Shown in pieces: positions 52,858-61,429 of a stretch of 64,000 bases of DNA. The DNA comes from Microbacterium terricola. Its GTDB lineage: Bacteria > Actinomycetota > Actinomycetes > Actinomycetales > Microbacteriaceae. Under the pieces are notes generated by a model. It was given only the letters and a program-made list of their open reading frames with translations. It was not told the origin of the DNA and ran no database searches. The stretch spans positions 1,860,001-1,924,000 of the forward strand of contig NZ_AP027141.1 of the NCBI RefSeq assembly GCF_027943945.1, read 5' to 3'. Both the position numbers and the translations under genes were made by a program. How positions within the stretch are numbered: the stretch's first letter is position 1; each line of letters opens with the position of its first letter.

Positions 52858-53712
52858 GCGAGCGAGCGGGCCCGCCGCGCGGGCGATGCGCACGAAGTCG
52901 TCGACCCCGAGCTCCTCGCCGCGGGCCGTGGGTACGACGCCTGCGGCGACGAGGATGTCGGATGCTGCGGCCGCCGACCCGCCGAGCACGCTCGACAGTG
53001 CCTGACGCAGCATCTTGCGCCGCTGCTGGAAGGCGGCGTCGACGATCGCGAAGGTGCGGCGGCGCTCGTCCTCGTCGGTGCGCGGCTCGGCGTCGCGGCG
53101 GAACGCGACCAGCACGCTGTCGACGTTGGGCACCGGCCAAAACACCTGGCGCGAGACCGTGCCGGCCAGCCGCCACGGGCCGTACCAGGCCGCCTTCACG
53201 CTCGGTGCGCCGTAGACCTTCGACCCTGGTGGGGCGGCCAGGCGCTCGCCCACCTCGGCCTGCACCATCACGACGCCGCGCTGCAGGTGCGGGAAGGTCT
53301 CCAGGAAATGCAGCAGCACCGGGACGCTCACGTTGTAGGGCAGGTTCGCGACCAGCACGCTGGGCTCGCCCGGCAGCTCCGACACGCGCAGCGCATCGGC
53401 GTCGACGACGGTCAAGGCGTCGGGGGCGACGCCGTGCGCCGCGGCCGTCTCCGGCAGCCGGGCGGCCAGGCGGTGGTCGATCTCGACGGCGGTGACCGCG
53501 GCCCCGGTCTCCAGGATCGCGAGCGTGAGCGATCCGAGCCCTGGCCCCACCTCGACGACGTGCTCCCCGGTTTGCACGCCGGCGACCTGCACGATCTTGC
53601 GCACGGTGTTGGCGTCGACGACGAAGTTCTGCCCGAGCTTCTTGGTCGGCGTCACGTCGAGTTCAGCGGCGAGCGCGCGGATCTCGCCGGCGCCGAGGAG
53701 GGTCACGGGCAT
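52855..53712 (-). CDS. rsmA: 16S rRNA (adenine1518/1519-N6) dimethyltransferase
   Basis: This 285-residue enzyme dimethylates two adenines near the 3' end of 16S rRNA in late 30S assembly. Motifs are [21 protein letters not shown] motif [24 protein letters not shown] and the catalytic [15 protein letters not shown]. The C-terminal helical domain is present. TAGGGT lies six bases before the ATG, predicting a leaderless mRNA. In related genomes it is next to tatD or rpfB; here an 8.7-kb block separates it from tatD. Confidence 0.96.
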
Positions 53713-53718
53713 GCGTTC

Positions 53719-53724
53719 ACCCTA
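53719..53724 (-). promoter_or_regulatory. Predicted -10 box of leaderless rsmA promoter
   Basis: TAGGGT on the minus strand is followed by GAACGC and the rsmA ATG. It lies in the 147-bp gap shared with the divergent exopolysaccharide operon. Confidence 0.5.
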
Positions 53725-53859
53725 CCCAGTCGGCATCCAGCCAATCGTCACGCGACGTTCACAGAGCGGGTACCCCGCCGTCGCGCGCCGCGCACATCAT
53801 GGGGGTTCAGGCGTCGACGTGGCCGCGGAGGAAGCACCGACATCACTCCGGGGGGAAAG

Positions 53860-55575
53860 ATGCCGATCACCCGACCACCCACACAGCTCACCCGATTCGA
53901 CCGCGGCGGACGCGTCGTCCGCGTCAGCGAGACCTCCGCACTGTTCGTGCTGGTCTCGGTGCTCGCCACCCTCGGGGTGGTCGCGTACGCGCTGTTCCTG
54001 CTCAACCCGGCGAACCGCGGCGACCTGCTGCCCTACAGTCTCGTGCTCATCGCCGAGACGGTGCTGGTCGTGCAGGCGCTGCTGTCGATGTGGACGATCC
54101 TGTCCTCGGGGTACGAGCCGCGGGACTTCGCGTACCACGAGGCCCGCAGGACCCTGCTCGCAGACGGCGACGACACCGTCCGGCTCGGCGGCAGGGAGGT
54201 GCTCGTCGACGTCTACATCACGGCGTACGGCGAAGACCTCGACACCATCAGGCGGACCGTGGCTGCCGCGGTGGCGATGCGCGGCGCGCACCGCACCTGG
54301 GTGCTCGACGACGGGCGCTCGGACGCGCTCAAGGACGCCACGGCGGAGCTCGGCGCCTGGTACATCCGCCGGCTCAGCTCGAACGGCGCGAAGGCCGGCA
54401 ATATCAACCACGCACTGTCGGCCACCACGGGCGAGTTCTTCGCGGTCTTCGATGCGGACTTCGTCCCCGACCCGGACTTCCTGGTCGAGACGGTGCCGTT
54501 CTTCACGGACGACAACGTGGCGTTCGTGCAGACCCCGCAGGCGTACGGCAACCTGCACACGGTCATCGCGCGCGGCGCCGCCTTCATGCAGACGGTGTTC
54601 TACCGGTTCGTCCAGCGCGGCCGCAACCGCTTCAACGCGGCCTTCTGCGTCGGCACGAACGTCATCTTCCGCCGTGCGGCGATCGACGACATCGGCGGCA
54701 TCCACACGGACTCGAAGTCGGAGGATGTCTGGACCGCGCTGTCGTTGCACGAACGGGGCTGGCGCTCGGTCTACATCGCCGACATCCTCGCCGTCGGCGA
54801 GGCGCCCGAGACGATCGAGGCGTACAGCAAGCAGCAGCTGCGCTGGGCGACAGGCGGCTTCGAGATCCTGTTGACGCACAATCCGCTCAGCCCGCGTCGA
54901 CGGCTGACGGGCGACCAGCGCGTGCAGTACTTCGTGACGGCGACGTTCTACCTCACCGGCATCTGCCCGCTGCTGCTCCTGCTCGTGCCGCCGCTGGAGA
55001 TCTACTTCGACCTCCGCCCGATGAACCTCACCATCACGGCGGTGACGTGGGCGCTGTACTACGCGGGCTTCTACCTCATGCAGGTCGTGCTGGCGTGGTT
55101 CGTGGTCGGGTCGTTCCGGTGGGAGACGCTCACGCTCGCGACGGTCTCGTTCCCGATCTACACGAAGGCGCTCTGGAACGTGATCACCGGGAAGGACGTC
55201 GGCTGGCATGTCACCGGGTCGGCGTCCCACAGGTCGCCGTTCGAGTTCATCGTGCCGCAGGTGCTGTTCTTCGTGTTCCTCGCCCTGACCTCGGTGGTCG
55301 CGATCTGGCGGGATCTGCAGAACGGCACGCCCACGCTCGCGACGGCATGGAACCTCACGAACACCGTGATCCTCGGGGCGTTCATCGGCGCCGCGTTCCG
55401 CGAGCAGCACCTGGTGCGCCACCCGCAGCGGGTGCTCTCGACGTCGCCCCCCGCCGAGACGCCCGAGCTCGTCACGATCGTCGCCAGGCCGCTGCCTGTC
55501 CCCGCCGTCCCTGACGAGGTGCTCGTGGGACGTGCCGCCGCACGGGCCGCCATCGCCGAGCGGAGCATCGCATGA
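53860..55575 (+). CDS. Membrane GT2 processive glycosyltransferase (cellulose/curdlan synthase-like)
   Basis: This 571-residue protein has two N-terminal transmembrane helices (about 27-48 and 57-82), a cytoplasmic GT-A domain (about 112-330) and about four to five C-terminal helices. The processive-synthase residues are all present: VLDDGRSD (149-156), DAD (198-200), SED (287-289) and QQLRW (325-329), with the FCVGTN acceptor segment. There is no PilZ domain. It should polymerise and thread a beta-glucan through the membrane, using UDP-sugar; beta-1,3 linkage is inferred only from the GH81 neighbour. The ATG 53860 has GGGGGGAAAG. It overlaps the next gene by 4 bp. Confidence 0.9.
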   Translation: MPITRPPTQLTRFDRGGRVVRVSETSALFVLVSVLATLGVVAYALFLLNPANRGDLLPYSLVLIAETVLVVQALLSMWTILSSGYEPRDFAYHEARRTLLADGDDTVRLGGREVLVDVYITAYGEDLDTIRRTVAAAVAMRGAHRTWVLDDGRSDALKDATAELGAWYIRRLSSNGAKAGNINHALSATTGEFFAVFDADFVPDPDFLVETVPFFTDDNVAFVQTPQAYGNLHTVIARGAAFMQTVFYRFVQRGRNRFNAAFCVGTNVIFRRAAIDDIGGIHTDSKSEDVWTALSLHERGWRSVYIADILAVGEAPETIEAYSKQQLRWATGGFEILLTHNPLSPRRRLTGDQRVQYFVTATFYLTGICPLLLLLVPPLEIYFDLRPMNLTITAVTWALYYAGFYLMQVVLAWFVVGSFRWETLTLATVSFPIYTKALWNVITGKDVGWHVTGSASHRSPFEFIVPQVLFFVFLALTSVVAIWRDLQNGTPTLATAWNLTNTVILGAFIGAAFREQHLVRHPQRVLSTSPPAETPELVTIVARPLPVPAVPDEVLVGRAAARAAIAERSIA

Positions 55576-56303
55576 CCTGGGGCGCCCGCATCCGGCTCCT
55601 CCTCGGGTTGCTGGTCGTGTTCGCGATCGTCGCCGCGTGCACGCTCGTGTTCACGCAGCGCCAGTCGAGGGCCGAGAGCCGGTCGGCGTCGATCACCGCC
55701 GAGTCGTTCACGGTCGGCAGCGCCTACCCGGGCACGGTGACGACCATGGACGCCGCAGTCGGCGACGAGGTCGAGGAGGGCGAGACGCTGTTCGAGGTGC
55801 GCAGTCCGCAGCTGGCGCGCGACCTCGAATCCGACGTCGTCACCGCGGACGACCTCGGCATGCCGGTCGACGACGACGGCACCTACGCCATCGTCTCGAC
55901 CGTGGACGGCACGCTCTCGGAGGTGCTCGCCCCGGTGGGCGACTTCGTGCAGGGCGGCGAGGTGCTCGCGACCATCAACCGGGCGGGCACCCTGGCCGTG
56001 GCCGCCGAGTTCGTGCTGACCCCGCGGGACTACGGCCGCATCGGCGAGGGCTCGAGCGTCGAGGTGTCGCTGCCGGACGATCAGGTCGTCACCGGCACCG
56101 TGAGCACCATCGACGTCGACACGGTCGACGGCCAGGCGAGCTCGACGATCGTCATCGACAGCAAGGCCCTCGCCGCCGAGCCGATCGGGGGTCTCTACCA
56201 GCCGGGCACGCCGGTCACGGCGACCCTCCAGCTGCGCGATGACGGCCCGCTCGCGGGTGCCGCCGATGCGGCGCGCGACTTCCTGCGCAAGGTCGGGTGG
56301 TGA
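55572..56303 (+). CDS. Membrane-anchored lipoyl/HlyD-like periplasmic adaptor protein
   Basis: This 243-residue protein has one N-terminal transmembrane helix (about 8-29) and an outside region made of barrel-sandwich (biotinyl-lipoyl-like) and beta-barrel parts. Two lipoyl-type hairpins are visible: TTMDAAVGDEVEEGETLFEV (about 57-76) and LSEVLAPVGDFVQGGEVLAT (about 115-134). There is no long helical hairpin. Such domains occur in HlyD adaptors and in the Alg44 copolymerase of alginate synthesis. Its ATG overlaps the GT2 stop, and its stop overlaps the GH81 start, so it most likely works with the synthase during polymer export. Confidence 0.82.
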   Translation: MTWGARIRLLLGLLVVFAIVAACTLVFTQRQSRAESRSASITAESFTVGSAYPGTVTTMDAAVGDEVEEGETLFEVRSPQLARDLESDVVTADDLGMPVDDDGTYAIVSTVDGTLSEVLAPVGDFVQGGEVLATINRAGTLAVAAEFVLTPRDYGRIGEGSSVEVSLPDDQVVTGTVSTIDVDTVDGQASSTIVIDSKALAAEPIGGLYQPGTPVTATLQLRDDGPLAGAADAARDFLRKVGW

Positions 56304-58291
56304 GCATCCGAGGCGGACGACGGATGCTGCGCCTCACCGCGATCGCCGCGGCGGCTGTGCTGTTGGGCGGCTGCACGGCGGCGGGCACCGACGCGGACAC
56401 CGACGCGGGCCCCTCCGCCGCGCCGCTCGCCGACGTGCCGATGCAGCGCACCGCCACCCTCGACATGAGCAGGCTCGCCGAGGGGGTCACGCCGCCGACC
56501 AACCGCTGGTACTCGGGCCTCGCGTTCGGCGCCGACCCGCAGCCGGTGTACCCGTACCCCCTCGCGTTCGCCGCGTCGGCCGACGGCTTCGCGGTGGACC
56601 TGCCCCCGGTCACAGCGAGCGCGACCACGGTGTCCGCGCTGTTCGCCGGCGGTCTGGGCGTCGACCTCGCGGCCACCGGCTTCCAGGTCGTGCGCGCGGA
56701 TCCCGTCTCGGTCACGCTGCGCTACTCGGACGGCGACGGCGCGATCGGCGACGTCACCGTCGCGGAGGGCTGGCCCGTCGTCGGGTTCACCGCCGCACGC
56801 GACGCCACCCTCACCCCGGCCGCTGCCCTCACGCCCTCGGGAGACGGGGTGTGGGCTGCTTCTGCCGACGAGACGTCCTTCGGCGTGACGGCTCCCGGCG
56901 CCGAGTGGGACGGCGGCGGCCTCCACGTCGCCGTCGGCGCGAGCGCGCAGTGGTTCGCCGTGCCCGCCGATTCCACACTGGCGGCGTGGACGGCGGCCCT
57001 GTCAGCACCGGTGGACGCCGTCGCCGTCTCCCACTCGACGACGGCCGAGACGGCCACGACCACCCTGGAGTACGAGGGCACCTCCGCGACCGTGCTCGTC
57101 CCGTTCGCCGGACGCGACGGCGCGGACGACTGCGGACTCGGCAGCTTCCCGACCGCCTACGGCACCGCATCCGCCTGCGCCGCGACCGGGCTCGAATGGG
57201 ACGTGCCGCGGCTGGAAGCCCGCGATGCGTACGACCTCGCCCGGCTGGACGAGTCGGAGCGCGCGCGTCTCGCCACGCAGATCGACGCCGACCTCGCCGC
57301 CACCGGGCCGCTCCCGGTGGACACCTACTACGGCGGCAAGGCGCTCGCGCGGCTCGGCGATCTGCTCTCCCTCGCCCGTTCGATCGGGGCCGATGCGCTG
57401 GCTGACGAGGTGGCCGACCGGCTCGACGAGGAGCTCGCGCCCTGGATCCAGGCGGACGGGTGCGCGACACGCACCGCGCAGTGCGTCACCTACGACGACG
57501 CCCTGCACCTCGTGGTCGGGCGCGAGCCCTCGTTCGGCTCCGAGGAGGGCAACGACCACCACTTCCACTACGGGCACTTCCTGCTCGCGGCCGCGGCCCT
57601 CGCCGAGCACCGCCCCTCCGCCGCCGCCGCGCTCGCCCCCGTGATCGACCTCCTCGCCGCCGACATCGCCACCGGCGCCGACGACCCCGACCTGCCCGCG
57701 CTGCGGGTCTTCGACCCCTACCGCGGCCACTCGTGGGCGTCCGGCCCCGCGCCGTTCGCCGACGGCAACAACCAGGAGTCCAGCTCCGAGGCCGTCGCGG
57801 CGTGGAACGGCCTCGCGCTGTGGGCGCAGGTGCGCAGCGACGACGCCCTGGCGGCGACGGCGGAATGGATGCTGTCGGCCGAGGCCGAGGCCGCCCGCAC
57901 ACTCTGGCTGGAGCCGAAGGATCTCGCCGACGGGTACGAACACGGGATCGTCTCGCTGAGCTGGGGCGGCAAGCGCGACTACGCCACCTGGTTCAGCGCC
58001 GAGCCCTCGGCGATCCTCGGCATCCAGCTGCTGCCGATGGGTCCGCTCGCCCAGGAGTACCTCGCCGGCGACCCCGATCGGATCGCGCGGAACGTCGCGG
58101 AGGCGGGGGGCGCAGCATCCTTCCGTGGACCACTGGGCGACTACGTACTGATGTACTCCGCCCTCGCCGGCGCCGACGCGCTCGCCGTCGCGCAGGCCGC
58201 GCTGGCCGACCTGCCCGACGACGCCATCGACGACGGGAACTCCCGCTCGGCGATGCAGGCGTGGGTCGCCGCCGTCCACCTCGGTGGCTAG
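56300..58291 (+). CDS. GH81 endo-beta-1,3-glucanase lipoprotein
   Basis: This 663-residue protein has a lipoprotein signal ending in LLGGC (about residue 26), then a GH81 domain spanning the rest. Family motifs include TNRWYSGLAFG near the N-terminus, EGNDHHFHYGHFLLAAAAL with the probable catalytic Asp, PYRGHSWASGPAPFADGNNQESSSEA with the probable catalytic Glu, and YATWFSAEPSAILGIQLLP. GH81 enzymes invert and cut beta-1,3-glucan. The GTG 56300 overlaps the upstream stop (GTGA); ATG 56324 is a possible alternative start. An outside-anchored glucanase in a synthase operon suggests chain release or length control. Confidence 0.88.
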   Translation: MSIRGGRRMLRLTAIAAAAVLLGGCTAAGTDADTDAGPSAAPLADVPMQRTATLDMSRLAEGVTPPTNRWYSGLAFGADPQPVYPYPLAFAASADGFAVDLPPVTASATTVSALFAGGLGVDLAATGFQVVRADPVSVTLRYSDGDGAIGDVTVAEGWPVVGFTAARDATLTPAAALTPSGDGVWAASADETSFGVTAPGAEWDGGGLHVAVGASAQWFAVPADSTLAAWTAALSAPVDAVAVSHSTTAETATTTLEYEGTSATVLVPFAGRDGADDCGLGSFPTAYGTASACAATGLEWDVPRLEARDAYDLARLDESERARLATQIDADLAATGPLPVDTYYGGKALARLGDLLSLARSIGADALADEVADRLDEELAPWIQADGCATRTAQCVTYDDALHLVVGREPSFGSEEGNDHHFHYGHFLLAAAALAEHRPSAAAALAPVIDLLAADIATGADDPDLPALRVFDPYRGHSWASGPAPFADGNNQESSSEAVAAWNGLALWAQVRSDDALAATAEWMLSAEAEAARTLWLEPKDLADGYEHGIVSLSWGGKRDYATWFSAEPSAILGIQLLPMGPLAQEYLAGDPDRIARNVAEAGGAASFRGPLGDYVLMYSALAGADALAVAQAALADLPDDAIDDGNSRSAMQAWVAAVHLGG

Positions 58292-58294
58292 TGT
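58289..58294 (+). promoter_or_regulatory. Predicted -10 box built on the GH81 stop codon
   Basis: The TAG stop of the GH81 gene forms the start of TAGTGT, followed by seven bases and the GTG of the sugar porter at 58302. Confidence 0.4.
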
Positions 58295-58301
58295 GACAGG
58301 A

Positions 58302-59765
58302 GTGACCGACTCCTCCGCGATTCCCGCCAAAGCCTTCTCCCTCCGCAGCCCCTACGGGCGCCGAGCCGTCGGCCTGTCGGTCGCGGCGGCGGTCGGCGGG
58401 TTCCTGTTCGGCTTCGACTCCTCGGTCATCAACGGCGCGGTCGAGTCCATCCAGGGCAACTTCGAGATGGGCGAGGTCCTCACCGGCTTCGTCGTCGCGG
58501 TCGCCCTCCTCGGCTGCGCGGTCGGCGCGGTCATCGCGGGCAACCTGTCCGACCGGTGGGGCCGACTCAAGGTCATGATGCTGGGCTCGGCGATGTTCCT
58601 GATCAGCTCGATCGGGTCGGCGCTGTGCTTCAGCGTGCCCGACCTGATCCTGTGGCGCATCATCGGCGGCCTCGGCATCGGCATCGCCTCCGTCGTCGCC
58701 CCCGCCTATATCGCCGAGATCGCGCCCCGCCAGATCCGCGGCGGACTCGCCTCGCTGCAGCAGCTCGCGATCACCCTGGGCATCTTCGTCGCCCTGCTCA
58801 GCGACGCCCTGTTCGCGTGGGGCGCAGGCGGCGCCTCCGAGACCTTCTGGCTGGGCCTGGAGGCGTGGCGCTGGATGTTCCTCGTCGGCGTGATCCCGGC
58901 CGCCGTCTACGGCATCCTCGCCTTCACGATGCCCGAGTCGCCCCGCTACCTGCTCGCGAAGGGCCGCACCGACGAGGCGCGCGCGATCTTCGCCCGGCTC
59001 GTGCCGGAGGCCGACCTCGAGAAGACCGTCACCGAGCTGACCAACGCGATCGAGACGGATCGCAAGCACGCCGGCGTCTCGCTGCGCGGCCCCGTCTTCG
59101 GCCTGCAGGGCATCGTCTGGGTCGGCATCATCCTGTCGGTGTTCCAGCAGTTCGTCGGCATCAACGTGATCTTCTACTACTCGACGAGTCTCTGGCAGTC
59201 GGTCGGATTCCCCGAGGAGGCGGCCACCGGCATCAGCGTGGTGACGTCGATCACCAACGTGCTCATCACGCTCGTCGCGATCTTCCTGGTGGACCGGGTG
59301 GGCCGCAAGCCCATCCTCCTCACCGGCTCCGTGCTGATGACGGTGTCGCTCGCGGTGATGGCGATCTCGTTCGTGTTCTCGACCACCGATGCCGACGGTG
59401 CGGTCGTGCTGCCGGCCCCGTGGGGTCCGATCGCGCTCGTGGCCGCGAACGTGTTCGTGATCGGGTTCGGCGCGTCCTGGGGTCCGCTCGTCTGGGTGCT
59501 GCTCGGCGAGATCTTCCCGAGCCGCATCCGCGGCAAGGCGCTCGGCGTCGCAGCCGGTGCGCAGTGGGTCGCCAACTTCCTGGTGACTGTGAGCTTCCCG
59601 GCGATGTCGGCCTGGTCGCTCCCACTGACGTACGGTATGTATGCGGTGTTCGCTGCCCTCTCGTTCGTCTACGTGGCATGGAAGATCCCCGAGACCAAGG
59701 GCATGGAGCTCGAGCAGACCGAGACGCTGTTCACCCGACCTGCGAAGAAGTCGCGCGGCGACTGA
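58302..59765 (+). CDS. MFS sugar porter
   Basis: This 487-residue transporter has 12 hydrophobic segments and all sugar porter signatures: GFLFGFDSSVINGA in TM1, DRWGRLKVM between TM2 and TM3, PESPRYLLAKGR after TM6, QQFVGINVIFYYS in TM7, VDRVGRKPILL between TM8 and TM9, and PETKGMELEQTE after TM12. It should import a hexose or pentose with protons. Start GTG 58302 is preferred because TAGTGT lies seven bases upstream; GTG 58293 is possible. It may take up sugars released by the GH81 enzyme. Confidence 0.9.
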   Translation: MTDSSAIPAKAFSLRSPYGRRAVGLSVAAAVGGFLFGFDSSVINGAVESIQGNFEMGEVLTGFVVAVALLGCAVGAVIAGNLSDRWGRLKVMMLGSAMFLISSIGSALCFSVPDLILWRIIGGLGIGIASVVAPAYIAEIAPRQIRGGLASLQQLAITLGIFVALLSDALFAWGAGGASETFWLGLEAWRWMFLVGVIPAAVYGILAFTMPESPRYLLAKGRTDEARAIFARLVPEADLEKTVTELTNAIETDRKHAGVSLRGPVFGLQGIVWVGIILSVFQQFVGINVIFYYSTSLWQSVGFPEEAATGISVVTSITNVLITLVAIFLVDRVGRKPILLTGSVLMTVSLAVMAISFVFSTTDADGAVVLPAPWGPIALVAANVFVIGFGASWGPLVWVLLGEIFPSRIRGKALGVAAGAQWVANFLVTVSFPAMSAWSLPLTYGMYAVFAALSFVYVAWKIPETKGMELEQTETLFTRPAKKSRGD

Positions 59766-59842
59766 GACAGGCACAGCGGCGAAATCTCCGCGAAACCGCA
59801 CGCGCCTACCCTGGGCGCACCGCATTTCGAAGGAGGACGCCC

Positions 59843-61429
59843 ATGAACGCGTTGACCGCGCTGCCCGCAGGATCCGTCCCCTGGTCCGCCCTGCTCGATC
59901 GAGACGACGTCGTGCTCGAGCGTGGCATCCTGCACCTCCACGACCCCGCCGCGACGCCGGATGCGGCGCGCACCGCCGATCTGCTCCTGATCGCCGACGC
60001 GCTCGAATCCGCCGGCATCGCCGTCGTGCTCATCCGCCACGGGCTGCACTCCCCCGCACTCGCGATCGACGCGACCCACCGCAGCGCCGCCGTCGCGGCC
60101 CTGACCGCGCTCGGCGCGCGCGAGCCGCTCTACGTCAAGCCCAAGGGAGCCGCTCCCGTGCTGTTCGCCGAGGCGGCCAAGGAGCCCCGCACCGACGCGC
60201 TGCGCCTGTTCCGGCCGCGGCTGGTGCGCGCGGGGGTGCTCGCGTACGGCGTCGAGTCCAGCGTCCGCGTCGAGTTCTGGCGCACCGAGGACGGCATCGT
60301 CCACGCGCCGCGCGAGAACGCCGTGATGCGCCGCGCGACCCCCGCGGAGGACGTGGAGCAGGTCGAGATCGAGCGCTTCGGGCGCACCTGGTCGAGCATC
60401 GCCGGCATGTTCGACCCGCACCCGGACGAGTTCACCGCCGACGTCGACATCGTCTTCTCGTGGGTGGACGGATCGTCGACCGAGTTCCAGCGCCAGCGCG
60501 CGGCCCGGCTGGCCGAGTACGTCGTGGGCGAAGGCGACGACGGCCCCGCCCGCTACCGGCACGTCGACGAGCTCCGCTACGCCCTGCGCAGCGTGCACAT
60601 GTACGCGCCGTGGGTGCGGCGGATCTTCATCGCCACCGATTCCCCCGCACCGGCCTGGCTGCTCGATCACCCGAAGGTGACGATCGTCCGCAGCGAGGAG
60701 TTCTTCGCCGACCCGACGGTGCTGCCGACGCACAACTCGCACGCCGTCGAGGCCCAGCTGCACCGCATCGACGGACTCGCCGAGCACTTCCTGTACTCGA
60801 ACGACGACATGTTCTTCGGCCGCCCGGTCGACCCCGAGCTGTTCTTCACGCCCGGCGGGGTCTCGAAGTTCGTCGAGTGCGGCGTCCGCATCGGCACCGG
60901 CCCGACGCGCCTCGAGCGCAGCGGCCACGACAATGCGCTGCGCGTGAACCGCGCCCTCCTGCAGGAGCGCTTCGGCCGCGTGATCACGCGCGACCTGGAG
61001 CACTGCGCGACGCCGCTGCGCCGCAGCGTCATGGCCGAGCTCGAACGCGAGTACGCCGACGACTTCGCCCGCACTGCGGCATCCCGCTTCCGCGCCGCGA
61101 CCGACATCTCCGCGACCAACTGCCTGTACCACTACCACGCGCTGTTCACGGGGCGTGCGATCGCGACGAACGAGCCGCGGGTGCGCTACGTGCAGACCAC
61201 GATGGCCTCGGCACTGCCGCGGCTGGAGCGCCTCACCTCCGACCGGCGCGTCGACATGTTCTGCCTGAACGACGGCGGGGCAGCCGACGTGCCGGAGTCC
61301 GTGCGGGTGCGCGCCGTGGTGGACGCGCTGGAGCGCATGTTCCCCGTGGCAGGACCCTGGGAGCGCCCCGAGGTCAGCGCAGTACCGGCAGCGGCTGAGT
61401 CGGCGGCGCGCTCCGGCGCGGGCCGCTGA
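59843..61429 (+). CDS. Stealth-family capsule polysaccharide phosphotransferase
   Basis: This 528-residue protein shows all four Stealth regions: CR1 in [13 protein letters not shown]2 in [20 protein letters not shown] with IFIATD, CR3 in [16 protein letters not shown] followed by [15 protein letters not shown], and CR4 near [15 protein letters not shown]. Stealth enzymes link sugar 1-phosphates into cell-surface polysaccharide through phosphodiester bonds. The ATG 59843 has AAGGAGGA. It is 77 bp after the sugar porter and overlaps the metallophosphoesterase by 56 bp tail to tail. Confidence 0.9.

Follow-up and report, generated by a model that had tools for sequence, protein, structure and literature searches.

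A conserved GT2 synthase, HlyD-type adaptor, and tethered GH81 glucanase gene trio in actinobacteria: a candidate machine for curdlan-type beta-1,3-glucan

Introduction

Bacterial cellulose synthesis is encoded by gene sets in which a core synthase is accompanied by an unrelated membrane partner and an endoglucanase, as in bcsABZ, ccsZAB, and cslA-glxA-cslZ (PMC11022532, PMC7710045; papers are cited throughout by PubMed Central identifier, each for the passages that bear on the point). Such sets occur in Gram-negative bacteria, in Clostridia, and in Streptomyces, with the glycanase believed to aid release (PMC7710045, PMC11022532). Among synthases of other glucans, BgsA carries a tail that binds cyclic diguanylate (c-di-GMP) (PMC5567048), while a homologue of its partner BgsB holds a HlyD-like domain that likely aids glucan expulsion (PMC9495663). 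The subject of this analysis is a window of 64,000 nucleotides (the whole stretch of DNA that was analyzed) from Microbacterium terricola, located at 1.86-1.92 Mb of a genome that consists of a single 3.25-Mb contig. The window contains three consecutive genes encoding a family 2 glycosyltransferase (GT2), a HlyD-type adaptor, and a family 81 glycoside hydrolase (GH81), hereafter the trio. The trio probably constitutes a self-contained machine that makes, exports, and trims a curdlan-type glucan with beta-1,3 linkages at the surface of Gram-positive cells.

Gene Organization and Conservation

The coordinates of the three genes are collected in Table 1. A preliminary description, made from the sequence alone, had claimed these coordinates together with the ATGA and GTGA overlaps, and both were exact when the window sequence was read again. 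The ATG start codon of the GT2 gene at 53860 is preceded by GGGGGGAAAG. Judged from the stop/start overlaps, the three genes are coupled.

A search of genome contigs with the GT2 yielded 70 named actinobacterial loci containing an orthologous GT2, and the order GT2-adaptor-GH81 is found in 69/70 of these (locus L078 being counted on broken frames only), which answers a check that the preliminary description had proposed. The only locus without a readable trio is L068, where the contig stops within GT2. By NCBI names, the loci belong to the Microbacteriaceae (36), Demequinaceae (13), Propionibacteriaceae (11), Cellulomonadaceae (6), Nocardioidaceae (3), and Promicromonosporaceae (1), so the order recurs over six families and two orders, and the named loci nearest to the trio of the window are from Microbacterium. 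Six extra loci were read likewise: the orthologues L080-L083 carry all three genes as far as their contigs reach, and the more distant synthases L084 and L091 have neither an adaptor nor a GH81 beside them. Among 394 genomes drawn from the class, eight contain the GT2 at E <= 1e-90; five of these provide new loci, in which both partners are present (5/5), and the remaining three are the window's own genome and two genomes already covered, G042 and G045.

The overlaps between the genes are also conserved. Across 76 loci (including the broken-frame loci L018, L035, and L078, and L072 with an implausible GT2-adaptor gap of -741), the GT2 and adaptor genes overlap, stop to start, by exactly four bases in 65 (60 ATGA, 5 GTGA), and the adaptor and GH81 genes do so in 47. 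Because the order recurs in six families of two orders and four-base overlaps are found in most of the 76 loci, the trio is, on the evidence of gene arrangement, a real conserved unit beyond chance. In the genomes searched it is rare and patchy in distribution, scattered among soil actinobacteria, yet almost indivisible. The GT2-adaptor pair is tandemly duplicated before a single GH81 in Demequina, where a second GT2 is found in L020 and L025, and likewise in the Cellulomonas-group genome G102 (L141).

The association of the synthase with the glucanase extends to their presence in genomes. When 58 relatives were compared, with an orthologous GT2 defined by a score of >600 bits, GH81 was present in 6/58, namely in 5/5 with orthologous GT2 and 1/53 of the others (Fisher 1.3e-6, a test that ignores shared descent). 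In the Cellulomonas group (81 genomes, GT2 counted at E <= 1e-100), GH81 was found in 51/51 genomes with the GT2 versus 4/30 without it. Moreover, GH81 lies on the same strand <=6 kb downstream at 52/53 GT2 places in this group, and the single miss, in G073, is 1.36 kb from a contig end. Conserved order, overlaps, and co-occurrence together bear out the earlier proposal of a Gram-positive synthase, adaptor, and beta-1,3-glucanase unit.

A larger conserved operon, with UDP-glucose (uridine diphosphate glucose) supply, a regulator, or a porter, was looked for with a simple frame-and-cluster method, and no further neighbor family was found in more than 16/77 loci. This absence is soft because the method, which itself recovered GT2 in 74 of the 77 loci but GH81 in only 64 and the adaptor in only 44, could miss short or fast-changing neighbors. 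No RNA element was found at gathering score within 53000-60000, a promoter scan found none, and terminator-like sites numbered 1 versus 1.3 expected.

Table 1. Positions in the window of the trio, its overlaps and motifs, and the adjacent porter gene.
Feature	Position	Strand	Basis
GT2, putative processive glucan synthase, 571 residues, no PilZ found	53860..55575	+	Open reading frame, Pfam, NCBIfam, tree, fold model
Adaptor, short HlyD/membrane fusion protein type, predicted membrane protein, 243 residues, one N-terminal helix	55572..56303	+	Pfam, AlphaFold2, Foldseek, hhalign
GH81, predicted endo-beta-1,3-glucanase lipoprotein, 663 residues, GTG start	56300..58291	+	Pfam, structure-sequence match, motifs
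ATGA stop/start overlap, GT2-adaptor	55572..55575	+	Sequence; recurs among 76 loci
GTGA stop/start overlap, adaptor-GH81	56300..56303	+	Sequence; recurs among 76 loci
Asp-Asp (D150, D151), GT2 nucleotide site	54307..54312	+	Invariant in 35-row alignment
DAD, residues 198-200, GT2	54451..54459	+	Alignment
SED, residues 287-289, GT2 (TED in BcsA), holds catalytic base Asp	54718..54726	+	Alignment
QQLRW, residues 325-329, GT2	54832..54846	+	Alignment
W-H-V-T-G variant gating loop, residues 449-453, GT2, replaces FxVTxK	55204..55218	+	W, T, G in 112/112 trio rows
Lipobox LGGC, residues 22-25, Cys25, GH81	56363..56374	+	Read from sequence
Asp419 of NDHHFHYG, GH81	57554..57556	+	D in 77/77 aligned GH81s
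Glu493 of NNQESSSEA, GH81	57776..57778	+	E in 76/77 aligned GH81s
Major facilitator superfamily sugar porter (Sugar_tr), accessory, directly behind trio; frame opens 8 bases before GH81 end	58284..59765	+	Pfam

The GT2 Synthase

The GT2 of the trio matches the Pfam families Glyco_trans_2_3 and Cellulose_synt, and PilZ was not found in it in Pfam at E 0.1. Among NCBIfam models, the highest score is that of the cellulose synthase CelA (TIGR03030, 242 bits, which is below the cut-off of 699), with PgaC at 65 and NodC at 40. An AlphaFold2 model (mean predicted local distance difference test score, pLDDT, 79; <50 at residues 1-24, 256-262, 449-456, and 524-571) ranks BcsA and plant CesA at positions 1-20 of the PDB folds, CslF6 at 21, and hyaluronan synthases thereafter. 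The gating loop is poorly modeled, as pLDDT is <50 at 449-456, and low confidence also applies to the C-terminal tail (524-571); in BgsA, the C-terminal tail binds c-di-GMP. Family scores and fold ranks rule out the identities of hyaluronan, chitin, and poly-GlcNAc synthase; a grouping with these enzymes, which the preliminary description had named as the contrary outcome, was not seen.

Every residue expected of a processive synthase had been described as retained, and D150/D151, DAD, SED, and QQLRW were all seen. The protein therefore has the D, DxD, (T)ED, and QxxRW elements of the BcsA-type processive GT2 superfamily along with a predicted membrane channel fold. It departs from the other aligned synthases at two of its motifs (counts below are for alignment columns, and the 112 trio rows include some genes fetched twice). 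Gln is second in QxxRW in 112/112 trio rows, versus Arg, and one His, in the other aligned synthases. The FxVTxK gating motif is fully conserved over BcsA, CrdS, and BgsA (PMC6821405). The trio GT2 lacks this motif and instead has W-x-[V/A/S]-T-G columns with W, T, and G in 112/112 rows, whereas seven actinobacterial BcsA-like rows retain F, V, T, and K. The channel-entrance residues of CrdS, numbered for AtumCrdS, are Q237, K270, H374, W422, and H442 (PMC6821405). Q237 and Q259 of the CrdS/BgsA type are found in 112/112 trio rows, unlike proteobacterial BcsA, and residue 270 is Arg in 112/112, as in BgsA, versus K270 of CrdS. The GT2 of the trio belongs to the glucan synthases of the BcsA family and has QQxRW and W-x-V-T-G signatures of its own.

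The placement of the trio GT2 was probed with a tree of 36 rows, with Streptomyces CslA and Romboutsia RiGT2 outside the comparison. CrdS is represented by the glycosyltransferases of L147 and L150 only, which were picked for their residues and gene order rather than from a name; they match 15/15 AtumCrdS positions of PMC6821405, two of which are implied by QxxRW. A HlyD-family adaptor gene precedes the CrdS-like synthase in both loci, in the crdA position. All trio GT2s fall into a single clade (100/100; 97/97 in an earlier tree). A first tree with a PgaC outgroup, in which long branches joined, was excluded from placement.

The Adaptor

The second protein of the trio matches HlyD_3 (7e-11), HlyD_D23, and Biotin_lipoyl in Pfam. 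In its AlphaFold2 model (mean pLDDT 91), a helix at the N terminus leads into a barrel-sandwich domain whose hairpin is very short, and a beta-barrel-like domain and, at lower confidence, a C-terminal helix complete the chain; the domain names are read off secondary structure and fold matches. In Foldseek the model resembles ZneB, EmrA, and MexA (E <= 1.4e-9), and hhalign relates the adaptor to a CrdA/BgsB-type set (95.7% over 114 columns). The family match and the predicted barrel-sandwich plus beta-barrel fold thus point to a HlyD or membrane fusion protein. The preliminary description had proposed two lipoyl hairpins; two lipoyl half-motifs are indeed present, but in the model they read as a single lipoyl-type barrel-sandwich (hybrid) domain whose helical hairpin is minimal. 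The lack of a long coiled-coil hairpin would fit a cell lacking an outer membrane. A HlyD-type partner is found beside the glycosyltransferase in 7/7 loci examined from the CrdS/BgsA branch (L100, L101, and L146-L150, with L102 outside the count), and a BcsB partner is found in 3/3 annotated BcsA loci (the unannotated L099 and L152 being outside the count).

The GH81 Glucanase

GH81 is a family of endo-beta-1,3-glucanases with a Bacillus member that binds intertwined chains of beta-glucan (PMC8949617). The third protein of the trio matches Glyco_hydro81C (PF17652, 156 bits), and its nearest solved structures by sequence are 6FOP (E 1.7e-59) and BH0236 (E 1.2e-42). The family match together with the conserved Asp and Glu assigns it to GH81; by the GH81 mechanism, we take Asp419 to be the catalytic acid and Glu493 the catalytic base. 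The LGGC lipobox, the NDHHFHYG and NNQESSSEA motifs, and the Glyco_hydro81C match uphold the earlier claim of a lipid-anchored endo-beta-1,3-glucanase. Judged by these signals, the trio GH81 is membrane-tethered with an intact active site.

The anchoring of GH81 is maintained in different ways. Among the 76 loci, a permissive lipobox pattern is found in 60 and a near-match in L022, while in 12 GH81s (L065, L070, and 10 from the Cellulomonas group) a hydrophobic stretch at the N terminus takes the place of the lipobox. A broken frame removes the start in L018, L035, and L078, which are excluded from this count only, and a membrane signal is present in 73/73 readable starts. The use of two different anchor types for one outcome suggests that holding GH81 at the membrane matters. 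The six non-trio GH81s read in these genomes are of a separate, larger, secreted-looking kind and are 33-35% identical to the window GH81, versus about 40-62% for full-length trio GH81s. A second GH81 is located directly behind the first at nine Cellulomonas-group places (nine genomes). Three of the nine were read by eye and look secreted, and the one scanned is 1118 residues long with CBM6 and fn3.

Proposed Function and Its Relation to Curdlan

The makeup of the trio suggests a mechanism in which the GT2 would polymerize UDP-glucose and pass the chain through a membrane channel of its own, as expected from its family and predicted fold. The adaptor, beside the channel mouth, may guide the chain or hold the complex, a role that BcsB, CrdA, and BgsB have elsewhere. 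The tethered GH81 would then cut emerging chains at the channel mouth, which may prevent jamming or early bundling, release chains through the thick wall, or allow later sugar recovery. Gene linkage, overlaps, anchoring signals, retained active sites, and clade structure are seen in the sequences; the linkage of the product, every activity, the formation of a complex, and the direction of the GH81 effect are the parts of this mechanism that we infer. The HlyD partner and the beta-1,3-glucanase point to a product of curdlan type, and over a mixed-linkage product a curdlan-like one is favored by the specificity of GH81 and by the occurrence of the trio in Cellulomonas flavigena, a species that produces curdlan.

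C. flavigena makes much curdlan, which has been proposed as its storage polysaccharide, and its reuse was called unclear (PMC3544764). Cellulomonas curdlan has been described chemically since a 1990 patent and in later papers cited there. The same 2013 paper names the GT2s Cfla_3154, Celf_3456, and Celgi_1506 as weak curdlan-synthase homologues; the available passages mention no adaptor or GH81 link and no functional test for them. An open-license literature search for four of the locus tags given there led to this paper alone. A complete trio is present in G126, G069, and G081, the genomes assigned to C. flavigena, C. fimi, and C. gilvus, and the trio GT2s appear, by relative position, to be Cfla_3154, Celf_3456, and Celgi_1506. 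Each of these genomes contains two strong BcsA-family synthases, one of which is the trio GT2. The second (L169, L170), read by eye, lies among small STAS and anti-sigma-like genes and is the main alternative curdlan candidate; in L170 its neighbor is a secreted-looking protein of 1929 residues.

Several observations weigh against assigning curdlan to the trio. The second BcsA-family synthase of C. flavigena, which by positional matching is also named in PMC3544764, could be its curdlan synthase, and both the species names and the locus tags of these Cellulomonas genomes are themselves inferred. The titled curdlan studies cited by PMC3544764 concern strain KU and do not extend, in the passages available, to the sequenced C. 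flavigena. In addition, C. fimi and C. gilvus failed to grow on supplied curdlan (PMC3544764), and the absence of growth despite GH81 argues against a main role of the enzyme in the reuse or digestion of outside curdlan. The co-occurrence statistics carry the burden of shared descent noted above. In the synthase itself, the CrdS-specific H374, W422, and H442 are missing from 112/112 trio rows, and the trio clade falls beside actinobacterial BcsA-like proteins of unknown product (98/98, with a program warning of long branches meeting). The trio GT2 as a CrdS orthologue was rejected, as the forced trio plus CrdS topology has an approximately unbiased (AU) test p of 0.0005. Consequently, a simple kinship with curdlan synthase, as considered at the outset, was not sustained. 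Because these three residues are absent and the gating loop is unusual, the linkage of the product cannot be read from the synthase.

A more far-reaching form of the proposal, put forward tentatively, is that the trio is a Gram-positive curdlan machine that did not come from CrdS. In this case, beta-1,3 specificity would have arisen in a separate branch of the cellulose synthase superfamily, in which the gating loop (W-x-V-T-G) and the QQxRW site were rebuilt, and the machine would depend on the tethered GH81 to edit nascent chains prior to triple-helix formation.

Other products were considered. A GT2 paired with a HlyD adaptor is also what bgsBA consists of (L100 of S. meliloti and L101 of R. 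phaseoli; PMC9495663), which raises the alternative that the trio makes a mixed-linkage (1,3;1,4)-beta-glucan, as S. meliloti BgsA does with its HlyD partner BgsB, and that GH81 trims 1,3-rich stretches or edits. The BgsA-type Arg at position 270 is consistent with this, as is a topology joining the trio with CrdS, BgsA, and kin, whose AU p of 0.107 is above rejection. However, the family of GH81 is that of the endo-beta-1,3-glucanases, including the Bacillus enzyme that binds intertwined beta-glucan (PMC8949617), and the Cellulomonas polymer of PMC3544764 is curdlan, making a mixed-linkage product improbable. A cellulose or other beta-1,4-glucan, with GH81 acting as a BcsZ-like enzyme of relaxed specificity, is less probable still. 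Cellulose synthases supply the top family score (below its cut-off) and the top fold matches, the trio lies next to BcsA-like proteins (again with long branches), and a grouping with proteobacterial BcsA falls just short of rejection (AU p 0.058). The lack of PilZ, a partner of HlyD rather than BcsB type, Q237/Q259 and a gating loop that both differ from BcsA, and an attached glycanase that in each trio read comes from a beta-1,3 family all argue against it.

A digestive or antifungal function of GH81, unrelated to the synthase gene behind which it would lie by chance, is hardly credible. Other Cellulomonas GH81s do look secreted, and the one scanned has CBM6, but order, overlap, and co-occurrence across six families, together with the compact, tethered form of the trio GH81 and its sequence distance from the six others, are difficult to reconcile with chance. 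A storage role is compatible with the proposed beta-1,3-glucan machine and concerns the purpose of its product: extracellular beta-1,3-glucan made under carbon excess would be cut by GH81 and re-imported by a porter. The proposed storage function of curdlan in C. flavigena and its unclear route of reuse (PMC3544764), the sugar porter directly following the trio in the window, and the second GH81 in nine genomes favor such a role. It is nonetheless rather unlikely, as a close same-strand porter match at this place is shared by only 2/70 loci (L009 and L017; some flanks are cut by contig ends) and added curdlan did not sustain growth of C. fimi or C. gilvus (PMC3544764).

Curdlan is a commercial gelling polymer. 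If the beta-1,3-glucan machine proposed here is real, it would explain how some Gram-positive bacteria make a curdlan-like polymer, and it turns the questions of curdlan synthesis and reuse in Cellulomonas into single-gene tests. The association of a glucan synthase with a glycanase for the same linkage may extend from cellulose to beta-1,3-glucan, and a glycanase may thereby label the product of an unknown synthase. The changed gating loop also offers a natural experiment for learning what sets linkage and translocation.

Neighboring Genes

Behind the porter, at 59843-61429, the window encodes a Stealth-family protein with all four CR regions. The same Stealth-family protein is located ~2 kb upstream of GT2 in L010, L011, L012, and L017.

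Comparison with Known Systems

A GT2-HlyD-GH81 set was not found described in the titles and abstract starts of the open-license papers among the matches listed in the literature searches. The trio would be a synthase-partner-glycanase module for beta-1,3-glucan without prior description in that literature. It is also distinct from BcsA systems, which are recognized by PilZ, a BcsB partner, and a CelA score above 699, as it lacks PilZ, has a HlyD partner, and scores 242 bits.

Agrobacterium crdASC shares with the trio a GT2 that adjoins a HlyD-type partner gene, as seen in the CrdS-like loci L147 and L150. In contrast, the GT2s belong to different clades by the AU test, the CrdA-type adaptors are 463-484 residues long versus 243 with a minimal hairpin in the trio, and the trio has GH81 as a third gene and a Gram-positive host. 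Sinorhizobium bgsBA is similar in its overlapping HlyD-adaptor and GT2 genes (L100, L101) and in the BgsA-type R270, but its gene order is reversed, no glycanase is named, and BgsA has 664-669 residues versus 571 for the trio GT2. Another synthase-glycanase neighborhood is found at L156 of S. meliloti, where a GT2 lies beside UDP-sugar genes and a GH26 gene.

The trio GH81 has the catalytic domain and motifs of 6FOP and BH0236; unlike these, it is compact, predicted to be tethered, and encoded in a synthase operon. The cellulose modules differ from the trio in that their glycanases act on cellulose, whereas the glycanase of the trio is of a beta-1,3 family and tethered and its partner is HlyD-type. 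What the trio has in common with the cellulose modules, at the level of gene linkage, is a fixed set of synthase, membrane partner, and endoglucanase.

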